From the NCBI GenBank assembly GCA_028281535.1, contig JANQJS010000046.1, forward strand, positions 1 to 64,000: a DNA stretch of 64,000 nt, read 5' to 3'. The translations under genes were made by a program, and so were the position numbers. Shown piece by piece: positions 1 to 52,581 of the stretch. This DNA is from Sedimentisphaerales bacterium (lineage in GTDB: Bacteria > Planctomycetota > Phycisphaerae > Sedimentisphaerales > SM23-30). Numbering within the stretch: position 1 is the stretch's first letter; every line of letters begins with the position of its first letter. The notes beneath the pieces are model-generated. The model was not told the origin of the DNA and did no database searches. It saw only the letters and a program-made list of their open reading frames with translations.

Positions 1-985
<985 letters not shown>

Positions 986-22362: not shown

Positions 22363-22779
22363 CTATTCACCAATAATCTTTACCAGGGCGCGTTTTTTAC
22401 GTTTACCATCAAGTTCATAATAAAAGATTTGTTCCCATGGCCCAAAATCAAGTTTGCCTTCAGTAATAGCAACGACCACTTCACGTCCCATGATGGTTCG
22501 CTTCAGGTGCGCATCAGCGTTGTCTTCATAACCATTGTGCTGGTATTGATCATAAGGTTTTTCGGGTGCCAGTTTTTCCAACCAGCGTTCATAATCGTTG
22601 TGTAAGCCAGATTCATTATCGTTGATAAATACGGATGCCGTAATATGCATGGCATTCACCAGAACCATACCTTCTTGAATACCACTTTCATGCAAACATT
22701 CTTCTATGATAGGAGTGATATGAATAATTTGACGACGTTGTGATGCTTCAAACCAAAGTTCTTTTCTATAAGATTTCAT
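22363..22779 (-). CDS. yjbQ: YjbQ/UPF0047 family protein
   Basis: 138 residues matching the YjbQ family along its whole length: [19 protein letters not shown], the middle stretch [15 protein letters not shown] and the ending [29 protein letters not shown]. Family members are trimeric metal-binding proteins; some can stand in for thiamine phosphate synthase at low efficiency, but the physiological role is not settled. It lies 30 bp after trpE(G) on the same strand, so the trp attenuator probably controls it too unless there is an internal promoter. Confidence 0.93.
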
Positions 22780-22809: not shown

Positions 22810-24939
22810 TTATAATAATAAATCCATTGCGTTAAATATAAGTTTCAAGCCAATTTGATCGTGTAGTGTTAAAATCGATTCTGGATGAAACTGTACGGAG
22901 GCGATGGGAAGATCTTTGTGTTGCAATCCCATAATAATGCCATCTTCCGTTTCGGCTGTAATTTCAAAGCAATCAGGCAAATTTTCTTTTTTGATATAGA
23001 GGCTGTGATAGCGTCCTGCCATGAAGGGGGAGGGAATATCTTTAAAGATGCCTTTGCCTTCGTGATGGATGGGGGAGTCTTTACCGTGAACAGGGGTTGG
23101 TAATACGCAAATTTCACCGCCGAAATGTTGTCCAATTCCCTGATGGCCCAGACAGACACCAAAAATAGGTAGTTTGCGATGAACGGCTTGTCCAACCAAT
23201 TGGGGGACGCCCATTTGCTCGGGGGTTCCAGGTCCAGGCGAAATAAAGATGAGATCTGGATTGATGTCATCAATTCTAGATTCATCAAATCCTGCACGAA
23301 GCGTAATGACCTCATGGCCCGTTTGTCGAACATAATTAGCAATCGTATGTACAAAGCTATCTTGGTTATCGACGAAAAGGAGTTTGTGTTTTTTTTGTTG
23401 TGCTATAGGTTTAATCGTCTCAGGCGAGTCAACCGTTTTTGTTGTAATCGCATTTATAAATGCTTCTGCTTTGACGCGTGTTTCGTTTTCTTCACTTTCT
23501 GGGTCTGAATCAAACAGTAAGGTTGCACCTGCGCGAACAGATGCTTTGCCATCATGCAGATGAATGGTTCGGATAGTGATCCCCGTATTAAGTTGATCCA
23601 TAAAATTAAAGAAGCCCACGCAGCCACCATACCAACGTCTGGGACTGTTTTCCAGGTTTTCAATAGTCTGCATCGCAATCGGTTTCGGTGAACCTGTGAG
23701 CGTACAAGCCCACATATGTGATAAGAAGGCGTCAAACATATCGCAATCGTCCAATAACGTACCTTTGACATGATCGACGGTGTGGAATAATTTTGAATAG
23801 GTTTCGACTAATCGTCTGGCGACAAGCTGAACGCTGCCAGGGACACATATGCGAGATTTATCATTACGATCTACATCCGTACACATGGTTAATTCTGATT
23901 CATCCTTTTTCGAATTCAATAACCATAGTATTTGTTTGGCATCATCCATTGGATTTGTGCCGCGGCGAACTGTTCCGCTGATGGGGCAGGTTTCGATTTC
24001 CTTATCATCCACACGAACAAACATTTCCGGGGAAGCGCCCACCAGTTGTTCATCGCCTAGGTTGATGATAAATTCATAAGGGCTTGGGTTTTGCTTACGA
24101 ACACGTTGAAAAATCTCAGATGGTTTATCGCCACATTCCACGGTGAATTCTTGAGAAAGAACGACTTCAAAGAAATCCCCTTGATGACAACCTTTTCGAA
24201 TCTTCTCAACTTTTTCAGCAAACTCGTTGGGCTGATGGTCGCAAACTATCTCTGTAGAACTAGGGTGATTGCCATATGGAGCACTTTCCGTTAAGTCAGA
24301 AAGTCCTGATGTAGAGATACCTTTGAATTCAAATTCATAACTTAGTTCGAATGCAACTTCTTTTTGGTGATCAATCGCACGCAGGCGATCAGGTAAAAAT
24401 AAATGACAATCAGCTCCTGTTTCAGTGCGATCAAATTTGAAATCGACTGGCTCAAATTGGAAAACGAGATCATACCCAAATGCACCAAACATGCTGAGGT
24501 ATTCATCTTCGCATTTAAAGAGATCACATAAACCTCGCAAGATAGAAAATATACTTGGCTGCTTGCTTCGCTCTTCTTCTGGAAACGAAGATGGCATTTC
24601 GATCACGCTGCCTATAATTCGATCTTCTAAGATATCACTGCTTTCAATATGTGGATGATTGATGACCGCCGTTGTAATCATTTTAAGTAAGGCTTTGCCG
24701 CGTTCGTTCAGTGCATGGAAAACAAATTCACGTCCGCGACTGATCATTTCGAGCGGGGGATTAATAAACCCGATATCCCAGCGGCTGTAACGACCAGGAA
24801 ATTCATAGTCGCTGGCAAAAATACCGCCACGGGTGGAATCTATTTGGTCATAAATAGCATCCAGTGCTGTTGCCATCTCCAGCATTGTTTTAGTGCGGGT
24901 TACTTGGATGCCGCCTTGGGTTGTATAAGTATCTGTCAT
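22810..24939 (-). CDS. trpE(G): Anthranilate synthase, fused TrpE and TrpG domains
   Basis: 709-residue fusion of both anthranilate synthase subunits, converting chorismate and glutamine to anthranilate in the first step of tryptophan synthesis. Chorismate-binding signatures fill the first 510 residues (NPSPYEFIINLGDEQLVGASPEMF, GTVRRG, DVDRNDKSRIC, LTGSPKPIAMQ). A glutaminase domain follows with SPGPGTPEQ, nucleophile region GVCLGHQG and HPES. The start is ATG 24939, 6 nt after AGGAAT; a longer frame would begin inside the attenuator. Fused TrpE(G) is best known from rhizobia and other alphaproteobacteria, and there too it lies behind a leader-peptide attenuator. Confidence 0.95.
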   Translation of the reverse strand: MTDTYTTQGGIQVTRTKTMLEMATALDAIYDQIDSTRGGIFASDYEFPGRYSRWDIGFINPPLEMISRGREFVFHALNERGKALLKMITTAVINHPHIESSDILEDRIIGSVIEMPSSFPEEERSKQPSIFSILRGLCDLFKCEDEYLSMFGAFGYDLVFQFEPVDFKFDRTETGADCHLFLPDRLRAIDHQKEVAFELSYEFEFKGISTSGLSDLTESAPYGNHPSSTEIVCDHQPNEFAEKVEKIRKGCHQGDFFEVVLSQEFTVECGDKPSEIFQRVRKQNPSPYEFIINLGDEQLVGASPEMFVRVDDKEIETCPISGTVRRGTNPMDDAKQILWLLNSKKDESELTMCTDVDRNDKSRICVPGSVQLVARRLVETYSKLFHTVDHVKGTLLDDCDMFDAFLSHMWACTLTGSPKPIAMQTIENLENSPRRWYGGCVGFFNFMDQLNTGITIRTIHLHDGKASVRAGATLLFDSDPESEENETRVKAEAFINAITTKTVDSPETIKPIAQQKKHKLLFVDNQDSFVHTIANYVRQTGHEVITLRAGFDESRIDDINPDLIFISPGPGTPEQMGVPQLVGQAVHRKLPIFGVCLGHQGIGQHFGGEICVLPTPVHGKDSPIHHEGKGIFKDIPSPFMAGRYHSLYIKKENLPDCFEITAETEDGIIMGLQHKDLPIASVQFHPESILTLHDQIGLKLIFNAMDLLL

Positions 24940-24951
24940 AGAAATATTCCT

Positions 24952-24992
24952 AAAAAAAAACCGTCGCCAAAATATCATTATTTAGGCCACGG
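24952..24992 (-). terminator. trp attenuator terminator
   Basis: On the minus strand CCGT-G-GCC-T-AAATA, loop ATGA, TATTT-T-GGC-G-ACGG followed by nine T. It lies between the leader peptide stop (25030) and the trpE(G) ribosome site (24946-24951), so the U-tract ends right at the Shine-Dalgarno. A competing antiterminator can be drawn between GGCAAAAA (25052-25045, in the Trp16-Lys18 codons) and TTTTAGCC (24998-24991), which would use the 5' arm of the terminator. Confidence 0.9.
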
Positions 24993-25029
24993 CTAAAATC
25001 TTTCATTCAATCATCAAATGGTACGATAT

Positions 25030-25098
25030 TTAATTGGGCCAGGTTTTTTGCCAACCTCGCCACCAGACGCGATTCATTTGTTGATTGTTATAGATCAT
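25030..25098 (-). CDS. trpL: trp operon leader peptide
   Basis: 22-codon reading frame with four Trp codons: the core RVWWRGWQKTW places Trp at positions 12, 13, 16 and 20. It starts at ATG 25098 with AAGGAA 5 nt upstream; an in-frame ATG at 25077 gives a 15-residue version. A terminator with nine T follows 40 nt after its stop and lies just before trpE(G). Slow translation of the Trp codons when charged tRNA-Trp is scarce would let an antiterminator form. Trp is normally about 1 % of residues, so 4 in 22 is strong evidence for a real attenuator peptide. Confidence 0.93.
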   Translation of the reverse strand: MIYNNQQMNRVWWRGWQKTWPN

Positions 25099-25120
25099 AT
25101 TAATTCCTTACTAAAACCCC

Positions 25121-25149
25121 ATTATCGCTAAATAAGCTATTTAGGTCAA
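25121..25149 (-). promoter_or_regulatory. trp promoter with palindromic spacer
   Basis: On the minus strand TTGACC (25144-25149), a 17-bp spacer and GATAAT (25121-25126). The start of transcription would be near 25114, only about 16 nt before the leader peptide ATG. A perfect dyad CTAAATA-AGC-TATTTAG (25128-25144) fills the spacer, a position suited to a repressor. The -35 overlaps the recJ stop codon. Confidence 0.7.
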
Positions 25150-26927
25150 TGGAAAATTATGTCTTCTGCAATGATCTCAACGCTGGTATTTCCATTAAAA
25201 CGGTTAATTTTTGGCTCAAAAACGAGGTCGAAGCTCTCAGCATCGACCAGTTTCTTTTCCCATTTCGCTTTGCCAAACCCAACGGCTCGGATCATGCGGC
25301 CAGGACCGAGTTGCGGATTTTCATCACTTTTTGACGCGACCATCATTTGTAAGTGATCACCTTTTTTGCCCATGGTTTTGGGTGGGCTTGCCAACTTCAA
25401 ATCTTTGGCAACTAACAAGACGTGAGGATTACCCTGGCCAAATGGGGCTAGTCGATCAATCATTTCCACCATCTTAATGTCGAGCTGTCTGATGGTTGCT
25501 TCAGCGTCAATGTGAATTGTTCGAACTAGTTTTTCTTCTAAGATAGAATCTTTGACATATTCATTGAACGTAGCCCGGAAAGCATCGATTTTAGAGACAT
25601 CAATTTTAATACCAGCGGCCATGTGATGGCCACCAAATTCGATCAAGTGTTCGCTGCAATGTTGTAATGCTTGATATAAATTAAATCCAGGAATCGATCT
25701 GCCGGAACCTTTCGCAACGCCATCTTCAATCGAAATCACAAAGGTTGGGCAATGGTATTTATCAACGATACGGCTGGCAACAATCCCGATGACACCGCCG
25801 TGCCAATTTTCTCCGGCTAGGACAAGGCCGTAATGTTCACCATTATCCATCCCAAGAGATTTAAATTGTTCTACCGCTTGATTTGTAATATCTTTCTCGA
25901 CCTTTTGTCTCAGTTTATTTTGGCTTTCCAGGTAAGTCGCAATTTCGCGTGCCTTGAGTGGATTGCTTTTGGTAAATAGATCAATCGCTAATCGTGCATG
26001 TCCCATTCTACCCGCTGCATTTAATCTTGGTGCCAGCTTAAATCCGATGTCGGTGCTATCGATTTTCTCGCCATCCAAGCCGCATGCTTGAACCAATGCT
26101 GCTACACCGACATTTTCACTATGAGCTAAACCTGATAGGCCAAACCGGGTAAGAACACGATTTTCACCGATCAGGGGGACGACATCAGCAATTGTGCCAA
26201 GCGCGACCAGGCTTGTAGCGTTTACCAGAAATTGGCGAAATTCAGGGGAGACTTTTTGGTGTCCGGAAAATTCCTGAGCGATCGCCCAGGCCAATTTAAA
26301 TGCAACGGCCGCACCACATAAATTCTGGTTAGGATAATCCTGGCCTTCAAGCCCGGGATGAACGATGGCAAAAGCTTCAGGTAGTTGGTCTGCCATTTGA
26401 TGGTGATCGGTAATAATTAAATCGATACCACACTCTTTGGCAACTTGAGCTTCGTGAACTGCGGATATGCCACAGTCGACAGTAATCATTACGTCAACGC
26501 CTTCTGAGGCAAGTTGTTTGATGGCCTCTTCGTTGAGCCCATAGCCTTCATCGATGCGATGGGGTACATAGTATTCGACTTCTTTGCCGGCCAGTTTCAA
26601 ACAGTGCCAGAGAATACTCACGCCGGTGATGCCATCGACATCATAATCGCCATAGATCATAATTCGCTCATCGCCAGCGATCGCTTTGCGAATCCTCTTG
26701 ACGGCTTTTTCAACGCCAATCAGGCGAGCTGGTTCGACCAGATCACTGAGGGATGGCTGTAAAAATTTCTGCACTTCCTTGGGATCGGTGATGCCACGAT
26801 TGTATAGGAGTTGGATAATAATTTCTGGAATGGATAATTTTTCAGCGAGTTGTTGACGCTCTGGCCAAAAGGGTTTGACGTCCCACTCACTCTTGGCAAT
26901 GTTTTTCTTAATTCTCAATTTTGCCAT
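25146..26927 (-). CDS. recJ: Single-stranded-DNA exonuclease RecJ
   Basis: 593 residues; 5'-3' exonuclease acting in recombination and repair. DHH phosphoesterase motifs are present: YGDYDVDG, ITVDCG, IITDHHQ and the DHHA1 motif GGHHMAAG, followed by the OB-like C-terminal domain with the characteristic FGQGNP. Length matches typical RecJ (about 570-600). I use ATG 26927 (MAKLRIKKN) since GGA 7 nt upstream gives better spacing than the ATG at 26939. The gene ends inside the trp promoter, so transcription of recJ could feed into the trp leader. Confidence 0.96.
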   Translation of the reverse strand: MAKLRIKKNIAKSEWDVKPFWPERQQLAEKLSIPEIIIQLLYNRGITDPKEVQKFLQPSLSDLVEPARLIGVEKAVKRIRKAIAGDERIMIYGDYDVDGITGVSILWHCLKLAGKEVEYYVPHRIDEGYGLNEEAIKQLASEGVDVMITVDCGISAVHEAQVAKECGIDLIITDHHQMADQLPEAFAIVHPGLEGQDYPNQNLCGAAVAFKLAWAIAQEFSGHQKVSPEFRQFLVNATSLVALGTIADVVPLIGENRVLTRFGLSGLAHSENVGVAALVQACGLDGEKIDSTDIGFKLAPRLNAAGRMGHARLAIDLFTKSNPLKAREIATYLESQNKLRQKVEKDITNQAVEQFKSLGMDNGEHYGLVLAGENWHGGVIGIVASRIVDKYHCPTFVISIEDGVAKGSGRSIPGFNLYQALQHCSEHLIEFGGHHMAAGIKIDVSKIDAFRATFNEYVKDSILEEKLVRTIHIDAEATIRQLDIKMVEMIDRLAPFGQGNPHVLLVAKDLKLASPPKTMGKKGDHLQMMVASKSDENPQLGPGRMIRAVGFGKAKWEKKLVDAESFDLVFEPKINRFNGNTSVEIIAEDIIFH

Positions 26928-27036
26928 GAAGGAATCCATTCCAAAGATTTTATTTAGTTTTGACAGGATTTATAAGATGGACAAGATGGTATTAATATTT
27001 AAATCCAGTCGATCTTGTTGATCCTGCCAAACGCAT

Positions 27037-28122: not shown

Positions 28123-31100
28123 ATGAATTCCAGGTTTAGCGAATTATCAAAAGTTAATTTATGTATTTTTCAGTACTTAACAATTCTTTTTCTTTTATCT
28201 TTATCTCCCAACTCTTTGCTGGCTCAATATGGCGGCGGTAGTGGGACCGAGCAAGATCCTTATGTCATCAATACTGCTGCGCATCTCAATAATATTGGTG
28301 TGAATCCACTTGATTGGGATAAGCATTTTATCTTGATGAGCGATATCGACTTATCTGGCTATGATGGTCAAGATGGGAATCCAATTTTCAATCGAATTGG
28401 TGAAAGTTCCATTCATCCATTTAAAGGAACCTTTGATGGTAATGGTTTTATTATTAGTCATTTTCAATATACGGGTGAGCTCAGAAACTTTTTAGGTTTA
28501 TTTGGTTCGATTGATTATCCCGCATTGTTACGTGATATTCATCTTAGAAATGTATTGGTTGATTCTACCAGTACTGCAAGTCAGTATGTAGGTGGTTTGG
28601 TGGGATATAATTATCGAGGAGTTGTAAAGAATTGCACTGTTTCTGGAAGTGTGAATGGATCTACTAGTGTAGGAGGTATTATTGGCGACCAAAGATCTGC
28701 TAAGCTAATTCGTTGTTCTTTTGATGGCGTAGTGACGGGGTCTTCCAACGTGGGTGGCTTGATTGGTGTCGAATCAAATTCCAGAATTGAATGTTGTCGA
28801 TCTACTGGCACCGTTTCCGCTTCTAATTATTTTGGAGGAGCAATCGGGCAATCATGGCATGGGCATATTTTAAATTCTTCCAGTTCAAGTCTTACTGAAA
28901 GAATAAATGTTTCATTCGGAGCCTATTATCCAGCTGGTGGTTTTGTTGGAGCTAAACATGGAGGAAGCATAGCGAATTGTTATGCAGCCGGGAATGTCAA
29001 TAGTATTAATAGAGTCGGTGGTTTTATTGGAAGAGCCTCGACAGCCGTTACGATAGATAATTGTTATTCAACAGGATTCGTGACATCAGATACCCCATCT
29101 TCAACGGGAGGTTTTGTTGGTTCCATAGATGAAGGAGAGATCGTTGCTTGTTTTTATAACAGTGAGACATCAGGGCAGATCGTTGGAGTTGGTGAAAATA
29201 TTAATGGGAGCGTCAATATTTTAGCAGAAACAACAGCAAACATGAAAATTGCTGCTACCTATATTAATCAAGGGTGGGATTTTAGTACTGTCTGGACGAA
29301 TAATGATGGCGTAACTTACCCTTCTCATCTAAGTCTACCTGATTTAGTGATTCAAAATGAGATTGAAGATTTTCTCATTCAAGCAGGTGAACCAACAGAG
29401 TTTACTTTTGATATTTACAACGCTGGAAAAGTAAACGTGGATCATGTAGACGGGATTTTAGTTAGCCTCTACCAATCTAATACAAATATTGCGGATTGGG
29501 ATACCTTGGAGCCTAATTATATTATAGATCAAAAAGAGTTTACTTCTTTAGATTTTGATCGAATACTGCCTGAAACCTTTTTGGTAACTACTTCTGAATT
29601 TTCAGGTGAAACATATTATCGAATTAAAGTCGACGGTGACGACGTGATAGAGGAAAGCCATGAAGATAATAATTGGTCGGATGTTATTACGATTACGACA
29701 TTTATTCACGATCAATATGAACCTGATGATTCTTACTTAGATGCTGCAGAAATTGATATCGATGGCACGGTTCAATTGCATAGCTTTGATCCTGTGGGGG
29801 ATGAAGATTGGGTAAAATTTACACTTAATGAAAAGTCTTCCATTGTTATCGAATTGATTGATGATGATAGCCAATTTAATCTTTATATGAGATTATATGC
29901 TTCAGATGCTGAGACTGTTCTTAAGAATGGTGTTTTCGCCAGCGGCTATAATCAAGCACATATAAAAGCTGTGTTAGAAGCAGGGACGTATTATGTCAAA
30001 ACGAATGAAAATGGTCATGATCAGACCGTTGATGAATATGGTATATACGTTAAGGCAACGCCTTACATGCCTGATTTGCAAATAAAACATTCTACCAGAG
30101 GTTATAATGGTGCTACGCCAGGCCAAACCGTTAATCTGCAATTACGGGTAACAAATTTTGCTATTGCCAGTGCAACGGAATTTAGTACGCAAGTATTTTT
30201 AGCTGATAGCCCTGATGCTGACTGGGATTCATTAGAGCCTAATGCCATGATCGGGCAGTATGATAATAGTGCTTTACCAGGAACAGGGGAATTATATCAA
30301 AACAACTTTGAATCATTTGTTATTCCAATAACGGCACCGCTGGAGGATGGAATTTATTATTATCGTGCTAAAACGGATGTGTTTGATGAAGTCGAAGAGC
30401 TGGATGAGAATAACAATTGGACAAATGTTGGGGTTCTGCGTATTGGAGTTTCTTACTCCTTTGGTGGTGGAAGTGGCACGCCTGAAGATCCCTATCAAAT
30501 ATGGACACCATTGCAGTTAAATATGATTGAGCCCACATTTTCCTTATCGAGACATTTTATTCAAATGGCGGATTTGGATTTATCTGAATATGATGGCTCA
30601 AAATTTAACAAAATTCCAAAATATTCTACCCATAGTTCATTTACTGGTTCGTATAACGGTAATGGATATGTAATTGATAATTTTAACTGGGGAGAATCTG
30701 GAGAAAACATCGGAATATTTAGTAGTCTATACAATGCTGAAATAAAAAATGTCACTTTGACCAATGTTGATGTTCATGGTTTCAGATATGTTGGCTCATT
30801 AGTCGGGAAGGCGACAAATAGTGTGATTCAAAATTGCTCCGTTGATGGTGTTGTTCGAAGCGGTGATGCATTTAATGATTTTTATATTAATGCATATACA
30901 GTCGGTGGATTAGTTGGGCGATCTAGCAATTCGCAAATAAATTATTGTCACGCAAATGTCCTGGTTGAAGGTCAAGAAGAAGTAGGTGGTTTGGTGGGGG
31001 TCTGTTCAAATACACAAATAAATTTATGTAAAGTTGAAGGCCAGCTGTTTGGAATTTCTAAACTTGGAGGGCTGGTTGGGGTTAATTCAAATAATAGCCA

Positions 31101-33981
31101 GATAGTAGATTGTATCGCAAATGTAGACGTGACAGAAACAAGTTCCATTAATGAAATATCTGGCGGATTTGCAGGAGGAAATATTAGTGGCAGCCAGATT
31201 TCTAATTGTTTTTCTACTGGCAATGTCTATGCTCAGAGCGCACAAACCGGCGGTTTTTGTGGATATAACGATAGTCTAATTTCAAATTCTTATACGATGA
31301 GTATGGTGGATGGCGTTGATCATGTAGGTGGATTTGTGGGTAACAATGATGTTAATGGTTCGATCACTTATTGTTATAATGCCAATTTAATCACTGCTAC
31401 TGGCACTGACGTTGGAGGATTTGTGGGTCGCAACAGTGGAAATATCACCCAATGTTTCTGGGATATGGATCTAACAGTTCAAACGGATACTGCGGGTAAT
31501 ATTATCTCTGGTACTATCACTGGTTCTGGCTTGAATACAGGGTTTCTGCAAACGCAAAGCACTTTTTCTGATGTTGGTTGGGATTTTACAAACATTTGGA
31601 CGATTGCTGAAGGGCTTGATTATCCACGCCATATTGAAGAGTCTGATTTGGTAGTTCTTGATTTGCTTGATAGGGAGGTTCTTCCTAGTGAACAATTTAC
31701 TTTGCATATTCCAATTGCGAATAATGGCAATGGACTTGCTGAAAGTAATCCTGGTTTTATAACAAAAGTATATCGCTCAACTGATTCATTGGTAGATTGG
31801 GATTCCTTGAATGATTCAGAGGTAGTTGCAGAATTTAGTTTGTCTGAACTCGCTTGTGGAGCGTTGCATGTTCAGCAGGTTGATATCATTGGAGCTGCAA
31901 TACCTGGTAGTGTAACCTATTACAGAATAAAAACGGATGCAAGTGATGATGTTTTTGAGGAAAATGAAACGAATAATTGGGGTAATATCATTACCGTTGA
32001 GACGGGTGGCCCTGATTTGGTGGCTTATATAGATCATCAGGATTTCCTAAAAGTTGGAGATGAATATACTCTCAATGTCACTCTCACAAATAATGGTATC
32101 ATTGAATCACCTGGATTTACGGCAAAGTTATTTGTTTCTCAGGTTTTAGATGTAGATTGGGATGCATTAGATGGGTCGGCTTTGGTTTCATCGATTTCTG
32201 TAGGTCCATTAGCTCCAGGTGAATCATATACACAGGCGATAAATTTAACAGCCCCTTTAACCCCTGGCAACCTGTTTTATCGTGCTCTAGCTGACTCGAA
32301 TGAAGACGTCTTTGAAAAAGATGAAACCAATAATTGGAGTTTTGTAAGACGGGTTAGTTTTGGTGCTTCAGATTTAGTTATTTCGCATTCAGGTGATTCG
32401 TTTTATGCAACAACAGAGTCCACGATTACTCTCGATTTCCGACTAATAAATAATAAAAGAATTGATGCCTCAGAAACATTTATTGTTGATTTATATCTTG
32501 CTGATCAAGTAGTCACAGATTGGAATAGTTTAGATCCTAATACAATCATTGATAGCTTTGAAGTAACAGGGCTAGAGGGTTACGGAACATTATTTGAAAC
32601 CTATACGATTAATCTACCAGCAGAGCCTGGTGTTTATTATTTTCGTGCCGAAATTGATTCCATCAATAATGTTATAGAAGAAGATGAAACGAATAATTGG
32701 TCTGAAGTTATTTCTATAGCTGTTAATTATAATTATGGTGGTGGCAGTGGTGATCCGAATGATCCATATCAAATATGGAATTCTGACCAGATGTATAATT
32801 TATCTCAAATTAGAACTGACTGGGATAAGTCATTTATTCTAATGGAGCATATCGATCTTGCATTATTTGATGGTCTTGAGGATCGACCTGCGATGCAGCC
32901 CATCGGTGGTGGCGATACAGAGCAATCTTTTACTGGCATGTTTGAAGGAAATCACAAAACAATATCCAATTTGACTATGATTTATGAGGATTATGGAGAC
33001 CGAGTTGCTTTATTTGGTTTTATAAATAATAATGCAGAGATAAAAAACTTAGGACTGAAGGATGTTTATATTTATGTCCCTGATGGGTATGTAGTTGGCG
33101 GGCTTGTTGCCTGGTGTGGACAAGGTGGACAATCTGCGATGATTTCAAATTGTTATGTGACAGGAACGATACTAGGTGATGACTTTGTTGGTGGGCTTGT
33201 CGCTCGCGTTAATAGATTCTCAACGGTTTATCGCTGTTATGCTGATGTTAATATTATTATACCTGAAGATACCTACAAAGAAAATATTGGGTGTTTTACT
33301 GGATGGTGTAATGGTGTAATTAGCGAAAGTTTTTCTAGAGGGTCTATTACAGGTTCACCTGCTTATGTCGTAGGTGTTGGAGGGTTTGTAGGTGGTATGA
33401 CTGGGCCTTGGGGGCAAATCGATAATTGCTACTCTAAAGCCATCATTGATCTTAATTATTCAACAGGCTACTTCCAGGGGATTGGTGGATTTGTTGGTAA
33501 GGGAGGCTATGATGATGAAAGAAGTCAATTGATCAACTGCTATTCGACTGGAGCCGTAAGTGTTCAAGGGGAAGATCTATTGTCTGTAGGAGGATTCTCA
33601 GGAAGTGAACTCGATGCAACAAATTGTTTTTGGGATCTTGAATCATCTGAACTAACCGAAAGTGCTAATGGAGAAGCTAAGACGACCGGGCAAATGCAAA
33701 TGAAAGACACCTTTGTGGATGCTGGTTGGTTATTTAAACAAGGACGAGTGCCTTCAGAGGGGCAAGCATGGGAAATTTGTGATACCGAGAGTTATCCAAA
33801 ACTTGTATGGCAAAAAGCAATTAATGGTGATTTTGGTTGTCCAGACGGCATTGATTTGTTGGACTTAATCTTTTTCGCTGATGGCTGGTTGTCAACCAGA
33901 CCAAAGTATGATCTTAACAATGATGGAATTGCTAATATCGTTGATTTTAGTATTTTATCATCGAATTGGATGAATAACTAA
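28123..33981 (+). CDS. Giant secreted GLUG/CARDB protein with C-terminal dockerin
   Basis: 1952 residues with a signal peptide ending near SLLAQ. Three GLUG-repeat blocks each open with a GGGSG..DPY motif, near residues 37, 779 and 1536, and contain many GGLVG/GGFVG repeats of a right-handed beta-helix. CARDB domains follow near 406, 650, 1174, 1297 and 1416 (each with DWD(S/A)L and ETNNW motifs). A PPC-like domain lies near 531 (YEPDDSYLDAAEI, DEDWVKF). The end is a dockerin pair (about 1899-1952, DLNNDGIANIVDFSIL). The layout fits an adhesin or surface scaffold; the ligand is unknown. It is convergent with purL (17 bp apart) and divergent from purQ. Confidence 0.9.
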   Translation: MNSRFSELSKVNLCIFQYLTILFLLSLSPNSLLAQYGGGSGTEQDPYVINTAAHLNNIGVNPLDWDKHFILMSDIDLSGYDGQDGNPIFNRIGESSIHPFKGTFDGNGFIISHFQYTGELRNFLGLFGSIDYPALLRDIHLRNVLVDSTSTASQYVGGLVGYNYRGVVKNCTVSGSVNGSTSVGGIIGDQRSAKLIRCSFDGVVTGSSNVGGLIGVESNSRIECCRSTGTVSASNYFGGAIGQSWHGHILNSSSSSLTERINVSFGAYYPAGGFVGAKHGGSIANCYAAGNVNSINRVGGFIGRASTAVTIDNCYSTGFVTSDTPSSTGGFVGSIDEGEIVACFYNSETSGQIVGVGENINGSVNILAETTANMKIAATYINQGWDFSTVWTNNDGVTYPSHLSLPDLVIQNEIEDFLIQAGEPTEFTFDIYNAGKVNVDHVDGILVSLYQSNTNIADWDTLEPNYIIDQKEFTSLDFDRILPETFLVTTSEFSGETYYRIKVDGDDVIEESHEDNNWSDVITITTFIHDQYEPDDSYLDAAEIDIDGTVQLHSFDPVGDEDWVKFTLNEKSSIVIELIDDDSQFNLYMRLYASDAETVLKNGVFASGYNQAHIKAVLEAGTYYVKTNENGHDQTVDEYGIYVKATPYMPDLQIKHSTRGYNGATPGQTVNLQLRVTNFAIASATEFSTQVFLADSPDADWDSLEPNAMIGQYDNSALPGTGELYQNNFESFVIPITAPLEDGIYYYRAKTDVFDEVEELDENNNWTNVGVLRIGVSYSFGGGSGTPEDPYQIWTPLQLNMIEPTFSLSRHFIQMADLDLSEYDGSKFNKIPKYSTHSSFTGSYNGNGYVIDNFNWGESGENIGIFSSLYNAEIKNVTLTNVDVHGFRYVGSLVGKATNSVIQNCSVDGVVRSGDAFNDFYINAYTVGGLVGRSSNSQINYCHANVLVEGQEEVGGLVGVCSNTQINLCKVEGQLFGISKLGGLVGVNSNNSQIVDCIANVDVTETSSINEISGGFAGGNISGSQISNCFSTGNVYAQSAQTGGFCGYNDSLISNSYTMSMVDGVDHVGGFVGNNDVNGSITYCYNANLITATGTDVGGFVGRNSGNITQCFWDMDLTVQTDTAGNIISGTITGSGLNTGFLQTQSTFSDVGWDFTNIWTIAEGLDYPRHIEESDLVVLDLLDREVLPSEQFTLHIPIANNGNGLAESNPGFITKVYRSTDSLVDWDSLNDSEVVAEFSLSELACGALHVQQVDIIGAAIPGSVTYYRIKTDASDDVFEENETNNWGNIITVETGGPDLVAYIDHQDFLKVGDEYTLNVTLTNNGIIESPGFTAKLFVSQVLDVDWDALDGSALVSSISVGPLAPGESYTQAINLTAPLTPGNLFYRALADSNEDVFEKDETNNWSFVRRVSFGASDLVISHSGDSFYATTESTITLDFRLINNKRIDASETFIVDLYLADQVVTDWNSLDPNTIIDSFEVTGLEGYGTLFETYTINLPAEPGVYYFRAEIDSINNVIEEDETNNWSEVISIAVNYNYGGGSGDPNDPYQIWNSDQMYNLSQIRTDWDKSFILMEHIDLALFDGLEDRPAMQPIGGGDTEQSFTGMFEGNHKTISNLTMIYEDYGDRVALFGFINNNAEIKNLGLKDVYIYVPDGYVVGGLVAWCGQGGQSAMISNCYVTGTILGDDFVGGLVARVNRFSTVYRCYADVNIIIPEDTYKENIGCFTGWCNGVISESFSRGSITGSPAYVVGVGGFVGGMTGPWGQIDNCYSKAIIDLNYSTGYFQGIGGFVGKGGYDDERSQLINCYSTGAVSVQGEDLLSVGGFSGSELDATNCFWDLESSELTESANGEAKTTGQMQMKDTFVDAGWLFKQGRVPSEGQAWEICDTESYPKLVWQKAINGDFGCPDGIDLLDLIFFADGWLSTRPKYDLNNDGIANIVDFSILSSNWMNN

Positions 33982-52188: not shown

Positions 52189-52475
52189 TGTAAATCCTAT
52201 ATTTATGTTTAATTTGAGGGTTTTTGCTTCTATCGTCAGTCTAACTGGGGGCCTGAATGGGGTTTTTCAGATTCTACGGATATTTTCGATTGTGTGATTT
52301 GTGAGGTCGCGGCCTTTTTAACTATCAGAGCCAAAAGGGATTATGGGGTTAACAAAACACTCCTTTTTTAATTCTATTTATTTGTCTTAGGTAAATTGGT
52401 TATGGTCCAATAATTATGGTTAGATAAAGGAAAAGAAATTGACGCTGAATTCCCAGCGATTTACAATCAGACCAT

Positions 52476-52564
52476 ATCGCTAGGGGTGCCATGAATTTGG
52501 CTGAGATAGTCCCTTGGAACCTGATCAGTGACTCCATTTGGATTCAGCTGCGTAGGAAAGTGAT
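52476..52564 (+). promoter_or_regulatory. TPP (thiamine pyrophosphate) riboswitch aptamer
   Basis: The THI-box landmarks appear in order: AGGGGTGCC (52482-52490), GGCTGAGA (52499-52506), GGAACCTGATC (52516-52526) and GCGTAGGAA (52550-52558). The closing stem P1 is ATCGCT (52476-52481) / AGTGAT (52559-52564). The P4/P5 arm is unusual, with an extra small stem TCCA/TGGA. It is followed by an intrinsic terminator, so TPP binding should stop transcription. Confidence 0.93.
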
Positions 52565-52581
52565 TCAAAATTTAGCTTTTG

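Follow-up and report, generated by a model that had tools for sequence, protein, structure and literature searches.

A putative ribosome-mediated tryptophan attenuator upstream of a fused trpE(G) gene in a planctomycete

Leader-peptide attenuation of tryptophan genes is known mainly from Proteobacteria and Actinobacteria. An attenuator survey of 2004 reportedly lists some low-GC Gram-positives, Thermotogales and Bacteroidetes/Chlorobi as well. The distribution of leader-peptide systems has been described as narrow (PMC2965389, PMC3766115); according to a survey of 2013, amino-acid attenuators may have arisen in gammaproteobacteria, with very few transfers (PMC3766115). The trp attenuators of Actinobacteria (PMC1262725) are examples from outside Proteobacteria, and those of Corynebacterium and Streptomyces are cited in PMC4833913. 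No published Trp attenuation in Planctomycetota was found, though older attenuator surveys may mention it.

The closest functional parallel to the locus described here is the trpLE(G) system of S. meliloti, which attenuates trpE(G) alone (PMC7298713). In both cases, the fused trpE(G) lies apart from the other trp genes and is preceded by a short leader with consecutive Trp codons and by a terminator. The S. meliloti leader has 14 amino acids and its RNA starts at the ATG (PMC7298713), whereas the present leader has 22 codons and an AAGGA motif upstream. The E. coli trp attenuator works by the logic proposed here, with Trp codons and a competing antiterminator and terminator, but the present attenuator precedes a single gene rather than an operon, the genome yielded no TrpR, and RF00513 (Trp_leader) gave no match even at an E value of 10. 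The actinobacterial attenuators differ in the phylum of the host and in that the present trpE(G) is fused. The mechanism is known, and the host group and the distribution are apparently new. Comparison of sequences makes it very probable that a classical ribosome-mediated attenuator controls this trpE(G) and that such control is general in the order; on balance, the apparently foreign gene came with an attenuator of its own.

The recJ–trpE(G) gap

The locus lies on the minus strand of the window (the whole stretch of DNA analysed, 64,000 nucleotides). Its features are as follows.

25146..26939, minus strand: recJ, next gene upstream and co-oriented (TIGR00644, 566 bits)
25121..25149, minus strand: sigma-70-like promoter TTGACC-17-GATAAT, from sequence and family conservation
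25030..25098, minus strand: trpL-like leader ORF, 22 codons and stop, MIYNNQQMNRVWWRGWQKTWPN
25039..25065, minus strand: putative regulatory Trp codons, residues 12, 13, 16 and 20 of the leader translation
25025..25040, minus strand: putative antiterminator 5' strand (segment 2), GGCCCAATTAAATATC, across the leader stop codon, from state folding (z -1.3) and equivalent pairing in relatives by swap tests
24985..25000, minus strand: putative antiterminator 3' strand, GATTTTAGCCGTGGCC, which shares bases with the terminator 5' arm (segment 3), from state folding
24952..24994, minus strand: intrinsic terminator, stem-loop 24994-24959 with T9 tract 24960-24952, from folding and family conservation
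24948..24951, minus strand: AGGA ribosome-binding site of trpE(G), adjoining the end of the T tract
22810..24939, minus strand: trpE(G), fused anthranilate synthase components I and II, 709 aa (TIGR01815, NF010081 and tree)

The first-pass annotation had proposed a Trp attenuator at this place, and this observation was confirmed. The promoter, the 22-codon peptide with its four Trp residues, the stem with nine T and the ribosome site right after the U-tract were all found as it had described them. The -35 box TTGACC (25149-25144) overlaps the stop codon of recJ (25146), and the -10 box GATAAT (25126-25121) follows after a spacer of 17 bases. Taken alone, this promoter is not above chance in the window. 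AAGGA at 25109-25105 precedes the leader ORF, which is presumably translated and whose Trp codons start at 25065, 25062, 25053 and 25041. The terminator stem has a dG of -16.8 kcal/mol and a z of -4.4, and none of 200 shuffles was as good. Since a leader with four Trp codons and a terminator stand in register ahead of trpE(G), whose product catalyses the first step in making Trp, a role of an attenuator in the regulation of trpE(G) seems to be supported.

When the 206-base gap was shuffled 10,000 times with dinucleotides preserved, a short ORF with at least four Trp arose by chance in 27 cases. In addition, the 64-kb window contains six other such ORFs on its two strands. The count of Trp codons alone is therefore no proof, and it is conservation that carries the argument.

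In Gram-positives, some trp genes are under T-box control. The trp operon of Bacillus subtilis is controlled by TRAP (PMC4027176). It might be supposed from these systems that another RNA device governs trpE(G) in response to Trp and that the leader ORF is secondary. This reading is largely refuted and seems extremely improbable: neither a T-box (RF00230) nor the TRAP protein was found in the genome, the window has no run of (G/T)AG repeats, and no relevant Rfam family was matched at the locus.

The genes trpB and trpA are on other contigs than trpE(G), and a serC-like gene precedes trpB. No Trp leader was found before trpB or trpA. A second trpE-like gene in the genome scores barely above the pabB cut-off. 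Directly downstream of trpE(G), a YjbQ-family gene (TIGR00149) occupies 22363-22779 of the same strand; none was found beside the other fused loci searched.

Conservation in the family and across the order

The protein matches TIGR01815 (TrpE-clade3) over residues 5-706 with 908.7 bits (cut-off 739) and NF010081 with 986 bits. Close relatives are present in ten genomes of the same family, with 64-70% protein identity where full-length. The upstream region is readable in nine of the ten (the exception is G006), which together with the window gives ten loci. Promoter, Trp-cluster leader and terminator are kept in all ten. Loss of the Trp codons or of the stem in close relatives, which had been named beforehand as evidence against attenuation, was looked for and not seen. 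Comparison thus gives good support to the view that a planctomycete regulates a fused trpE(G) by ribosome-mediated Trp attenuation.

The promoter appears as TTGAC-N17/18-TAAT upstream of nine family leaders and was recognised by inspection in the tenth (G008). The Trp clusters include WWWRNGW, WWWRGW, WWCYW, WWAW and WWWRNF, among others. The leaders of L002 and L006 are further upstream than those of the other family loci. The automatic detector overlooked the terminators of L003, L007 and L008, which were established by folding. In G008, the leader (MSENIIKIQQNWWWRNFRSRRPGD) and the terminator lie about 1.6 kb upstream of trpE(G); the attenuator persists there despite an intervening gene of 400 aa. 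The product of this gene (L193, G008:C291) has a signal-peptide-like start (MDKNSLTRRQFITTVSSGALSAAVAAVPA...). It should be mentioned that the sequence TTTTTAACATAGGAG is repeated near trpE(G) in the same genome.

Outside the Trp cluster, the leader peptide is poorly conserved among the relatives. This bears on the idea that the leader acts chiefly in trans, as a peptide or a small RNA, like peTrpL and rnTrpL of S. meliloti, whose peptide and attenuated transcript do have trans roles (PMC7298713). With so little of the peptide conserved, such action as the chief function is considered highly improbable here.

These loci also bear on the reading that the hairpin is a constitutive premature terminator, which merely stops read-through from recJ, behind a coincidental Trp-rich ORF without a regulatory role. 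In the family and unfused loci alike, the distance from the Trp cluster to the stem behind it is almost always 56-83 nt. A promoter stands before every family leader, and all ten readable loci keep the Trp cluster. Furthermore, recJ is not immediately upstream in several relatives. The position of the hairpin about 150 bases beyond the recJ stop codon, the six other Trp-rich ORFs and the weakness of the window's own antiterminator would fit such a terminator; nevertheless, we judge it very unlikely. A tblastn search placed recJ before the fused gene in the window, in L006 and in L008; in G008 it apparently lies further upstream. The remaining loci end at contig edges or carry other sequence, and recJ was rejected as a fixed upstream neighbour.

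In the other families of the order, trpE is unfused. In one fetched set, a Trp-cluster leader followed by a terminator precedes the unfused trpE in all 24 loci from the order. The unfused set comprised 47 loci, 43 from the order (including G009, which belongs to the family of the window) and four from other parts of the phylum; a fixed detector found both leader and terminator in 37 of the 47. The corresponding values were 1 of 42 for control trpE loci of the phylum, mostly from outside the class, and 1 of 235 for shuffles. Since leader and terminator recur before unfused trpE across the order, Trp attenuation seems to be general there. In most native leaders, the stop codon follows shortly after a WWWP-like run, and repeats of the form CCTGTCG / CCGACAGG stand in segments 1 to 4 in the textbook layout. 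These loci closely fit the pairings 1:2, 2:3 and 3:4 of the E. coli attenuator. The suggestion of the first-pass annotation that attenuation with a fused trpE(G) would be rare or transferred therefore holds for the fused gene only; attenuation itself is general before native unfused trpE in the order.

A planctomycete order with textbook Trp attenuators, together with the Latescibacterota and Opitutales ones described below, argues against a narrow gammaproteobacterial origin. A second implication is that these bacteria couple transcription to translation tightly enough for attenuation to work.

Two further observations concern unfused loci. In L178:1-921 (G104, same phylum but outside the class), a HWWWYY leader, a strong terminator and an antiterminator duplex of -21.4 precede the unfused trpE, which is predictive of attenuation outside the class too. 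In L165, L166 and L168 (same class, family f8), a conserved GW[W/L]WRW...GRG leader lies about 140-270 bases before the trpE match, with no T tract. These might be Trp leaders with a translational or Rho-dependent output.

Antiterminator pairing and proposed mechanism

The antiterminator helix of the first-pass annotation, GGCAAAAA with TTTTAGCC, has -5.9 and gives way to a stronger one: GGCCCAATTAAATATC with GATTTTAGCCGTGGCC forms a duplex of -8.4, or -11.1 when folded together with an inner hairpin. This extended fold has a z of -1.3, and 17 of 200 shuffles were as good. The short GGCCC/GTGGCC duplex, at -8.1, does not stand out from shuffles (-7.7). In the folding of ribosome states, the antiterminator of the window is free with the ribosome stalled at Trp12, Trp13 or Trp16, but not at Trp20 or the stop codon. 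At equilibrium, the terminator beats the antiterminator in every ribosome state, and therefore kinetic pre-emption has to be assumed. This weak antiterminator is the weakest link for the window genome.

In all nine family loci modelled, the RNA freed by a ribosome at the stop codon folds as the terminator. When the ribosome is placed at the Trp codons instead, the end of the leader ORF pairs with the terminator 5' arm in most of the nine. The swap tests compared own with exchanged pairs of segment 2 and terminator arm, and their counts are indicative rather than exact because the loci within each group are related. For the nine family loci, own pairs average -15.5 and swapped pairs -12.9 kcal/mol, with 23 of 5000 permutations as low. 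The averages are -14.4 and -12.0 for the unfused set (0 of 5000 as low), and -12.5 and -11.1 for the loci of other phyla (30 of 5000 as low). The predicted pairing thus co-varies in the relatives. Among single loci, L006 (TGTCAGATCG with CGATCTGACT) and L011 stand out.

In the proposed mechanism, RNA polymerase would initiate at the 25149/25121 promoter, and a ribosome would translate the 22-codon leader. When charged tRNA-Trp is ample, the ribosome would reach the stop codon and mask segment 2; the 24994-24959 hairpin could then form, and transcription would stop in the T tract. When Trp is scarce, the ribosome would presumably stall at Trp12, Trp13 or Trp16. Segment 2 (25040-25025) would be freed and might pair with the terminator 5' arm before the 3' arm is made, so as to allow read-through into trpE(G).

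Origin of the fused gene

The gene had been called a planctomycete-type trpE(G). This label does not fit, as TIGR01815 matches in only 2 of 392 planctomycete genomes (E 1e-150). In a quick TrpE(G) tree with SH-aLRT support only, the family of the window (f1) and L036 form one starred clade. Its larger group (support 91) contains Opitutales, two proteobacterial MAGs and Latescibacterota, and the TrpE(G) of Bacillota and of the sampled alphaproteobacteria, a sample without rhizobia, sit elsewhere. A rhizobial origin was set aside on this placement of the sampled alphaproteobacteria; both the placement and the planctomycete host distinguish the gene from the rhizobial system. The fused gene in the family of the window thus looks foreign, and cross-phylum transfer is likely.

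Trp leaders and terminators also precede the fused gene in Latescibacterota and Opitutales (L039, L043-L048, L050, L055, L107, L038, L076). These loci resemble that of the window in Trp-cluster leader, terminator and fused gene, and differ in phylum; no published description of their leaders as attenuators was found. WWRxW is common to the Latescibacterota loci and the locus of the window, and so, in part, is the AACCGCGG stem base. Trp-cluster ORFs precede some alpha- and gammaproteobacterial fused trpE(G) as well. For nearly all fused genes of Paenibacillus, Sporolactobacillus and Acidobacteria, no Trp leader was recognised.

The attenuator itself might be native or foreign. Most sampled genomes of the order carry a Trp attenuator before unfused trpE. 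Within the family of the window, the trpE of G009 (L019) is unfused and is preceded by the leader MRNINKQNLNENWWLWRWQLRCGFCYDYFRR (WWLWRW) and a hairpin with a short T tail. It is conceivable from this that the fused gene landed behind the native attenuator of the order, or captured it, instead of bringing its own. The terminator arms speak for a different history. CCTG[T/C/A] occurs in 29 of 37 unfused loci but in only one of nine fused family loci, whereas CCG[C/T]GG occurs in seven of the nine, in 6 of 18 fused loci of other phyla, including Latescibacterota, and in none of the 37 unfused loci. In addition, most family loci have the antiterminator strand within the leader ORF or straddling its end, whereas in most native loci it follows the stop codon. 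Capture of the native attenuator is therefore regarded as possible but doubtful.

Joint transfer of trpE(G) and its attenuator is favoured by the Latescibacterota-like terminator, the tree and the rarity of the gene in the phylum; the motifs are short, the support is moderate, and joint transfer is probable to that degree. We lean slightly towards a scheme in which leader-peptide Trp attenuation is old and general in the planctomycete order, a trpE(G)-attenuator cassette moved among Latescibacterota, Verrucomicrobiota and Planctomycetota, and a foreign attenuated trpE(G) replaced a native attenuated trpE. A biosynthetic gene and its regulator may thus travel together, and this would account for a foreign gene being under control from its arrival.

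The trpE(G) at L036:3001-5133 comes from a MAG labelled delta proteobacterium and lies inside the planctomycete family clade with about 65% identity. A Trp-cluster leader is absent from the 600 bases upstream of it. This is either a further transfer or a mislabelled MAG.

Apart from this locus, the window contains a partial 16S rRNA gene (1-984, minus strand) cut by its edge and a TPP riboswitch (52472-52575, plus strand, 57.1 bits). A predicted repetitive protein of 1952 aa (28123-33981) has a C-terminal dockerin-like ending (LLDLIFFADGWL ... IVDFSILSSNWM).
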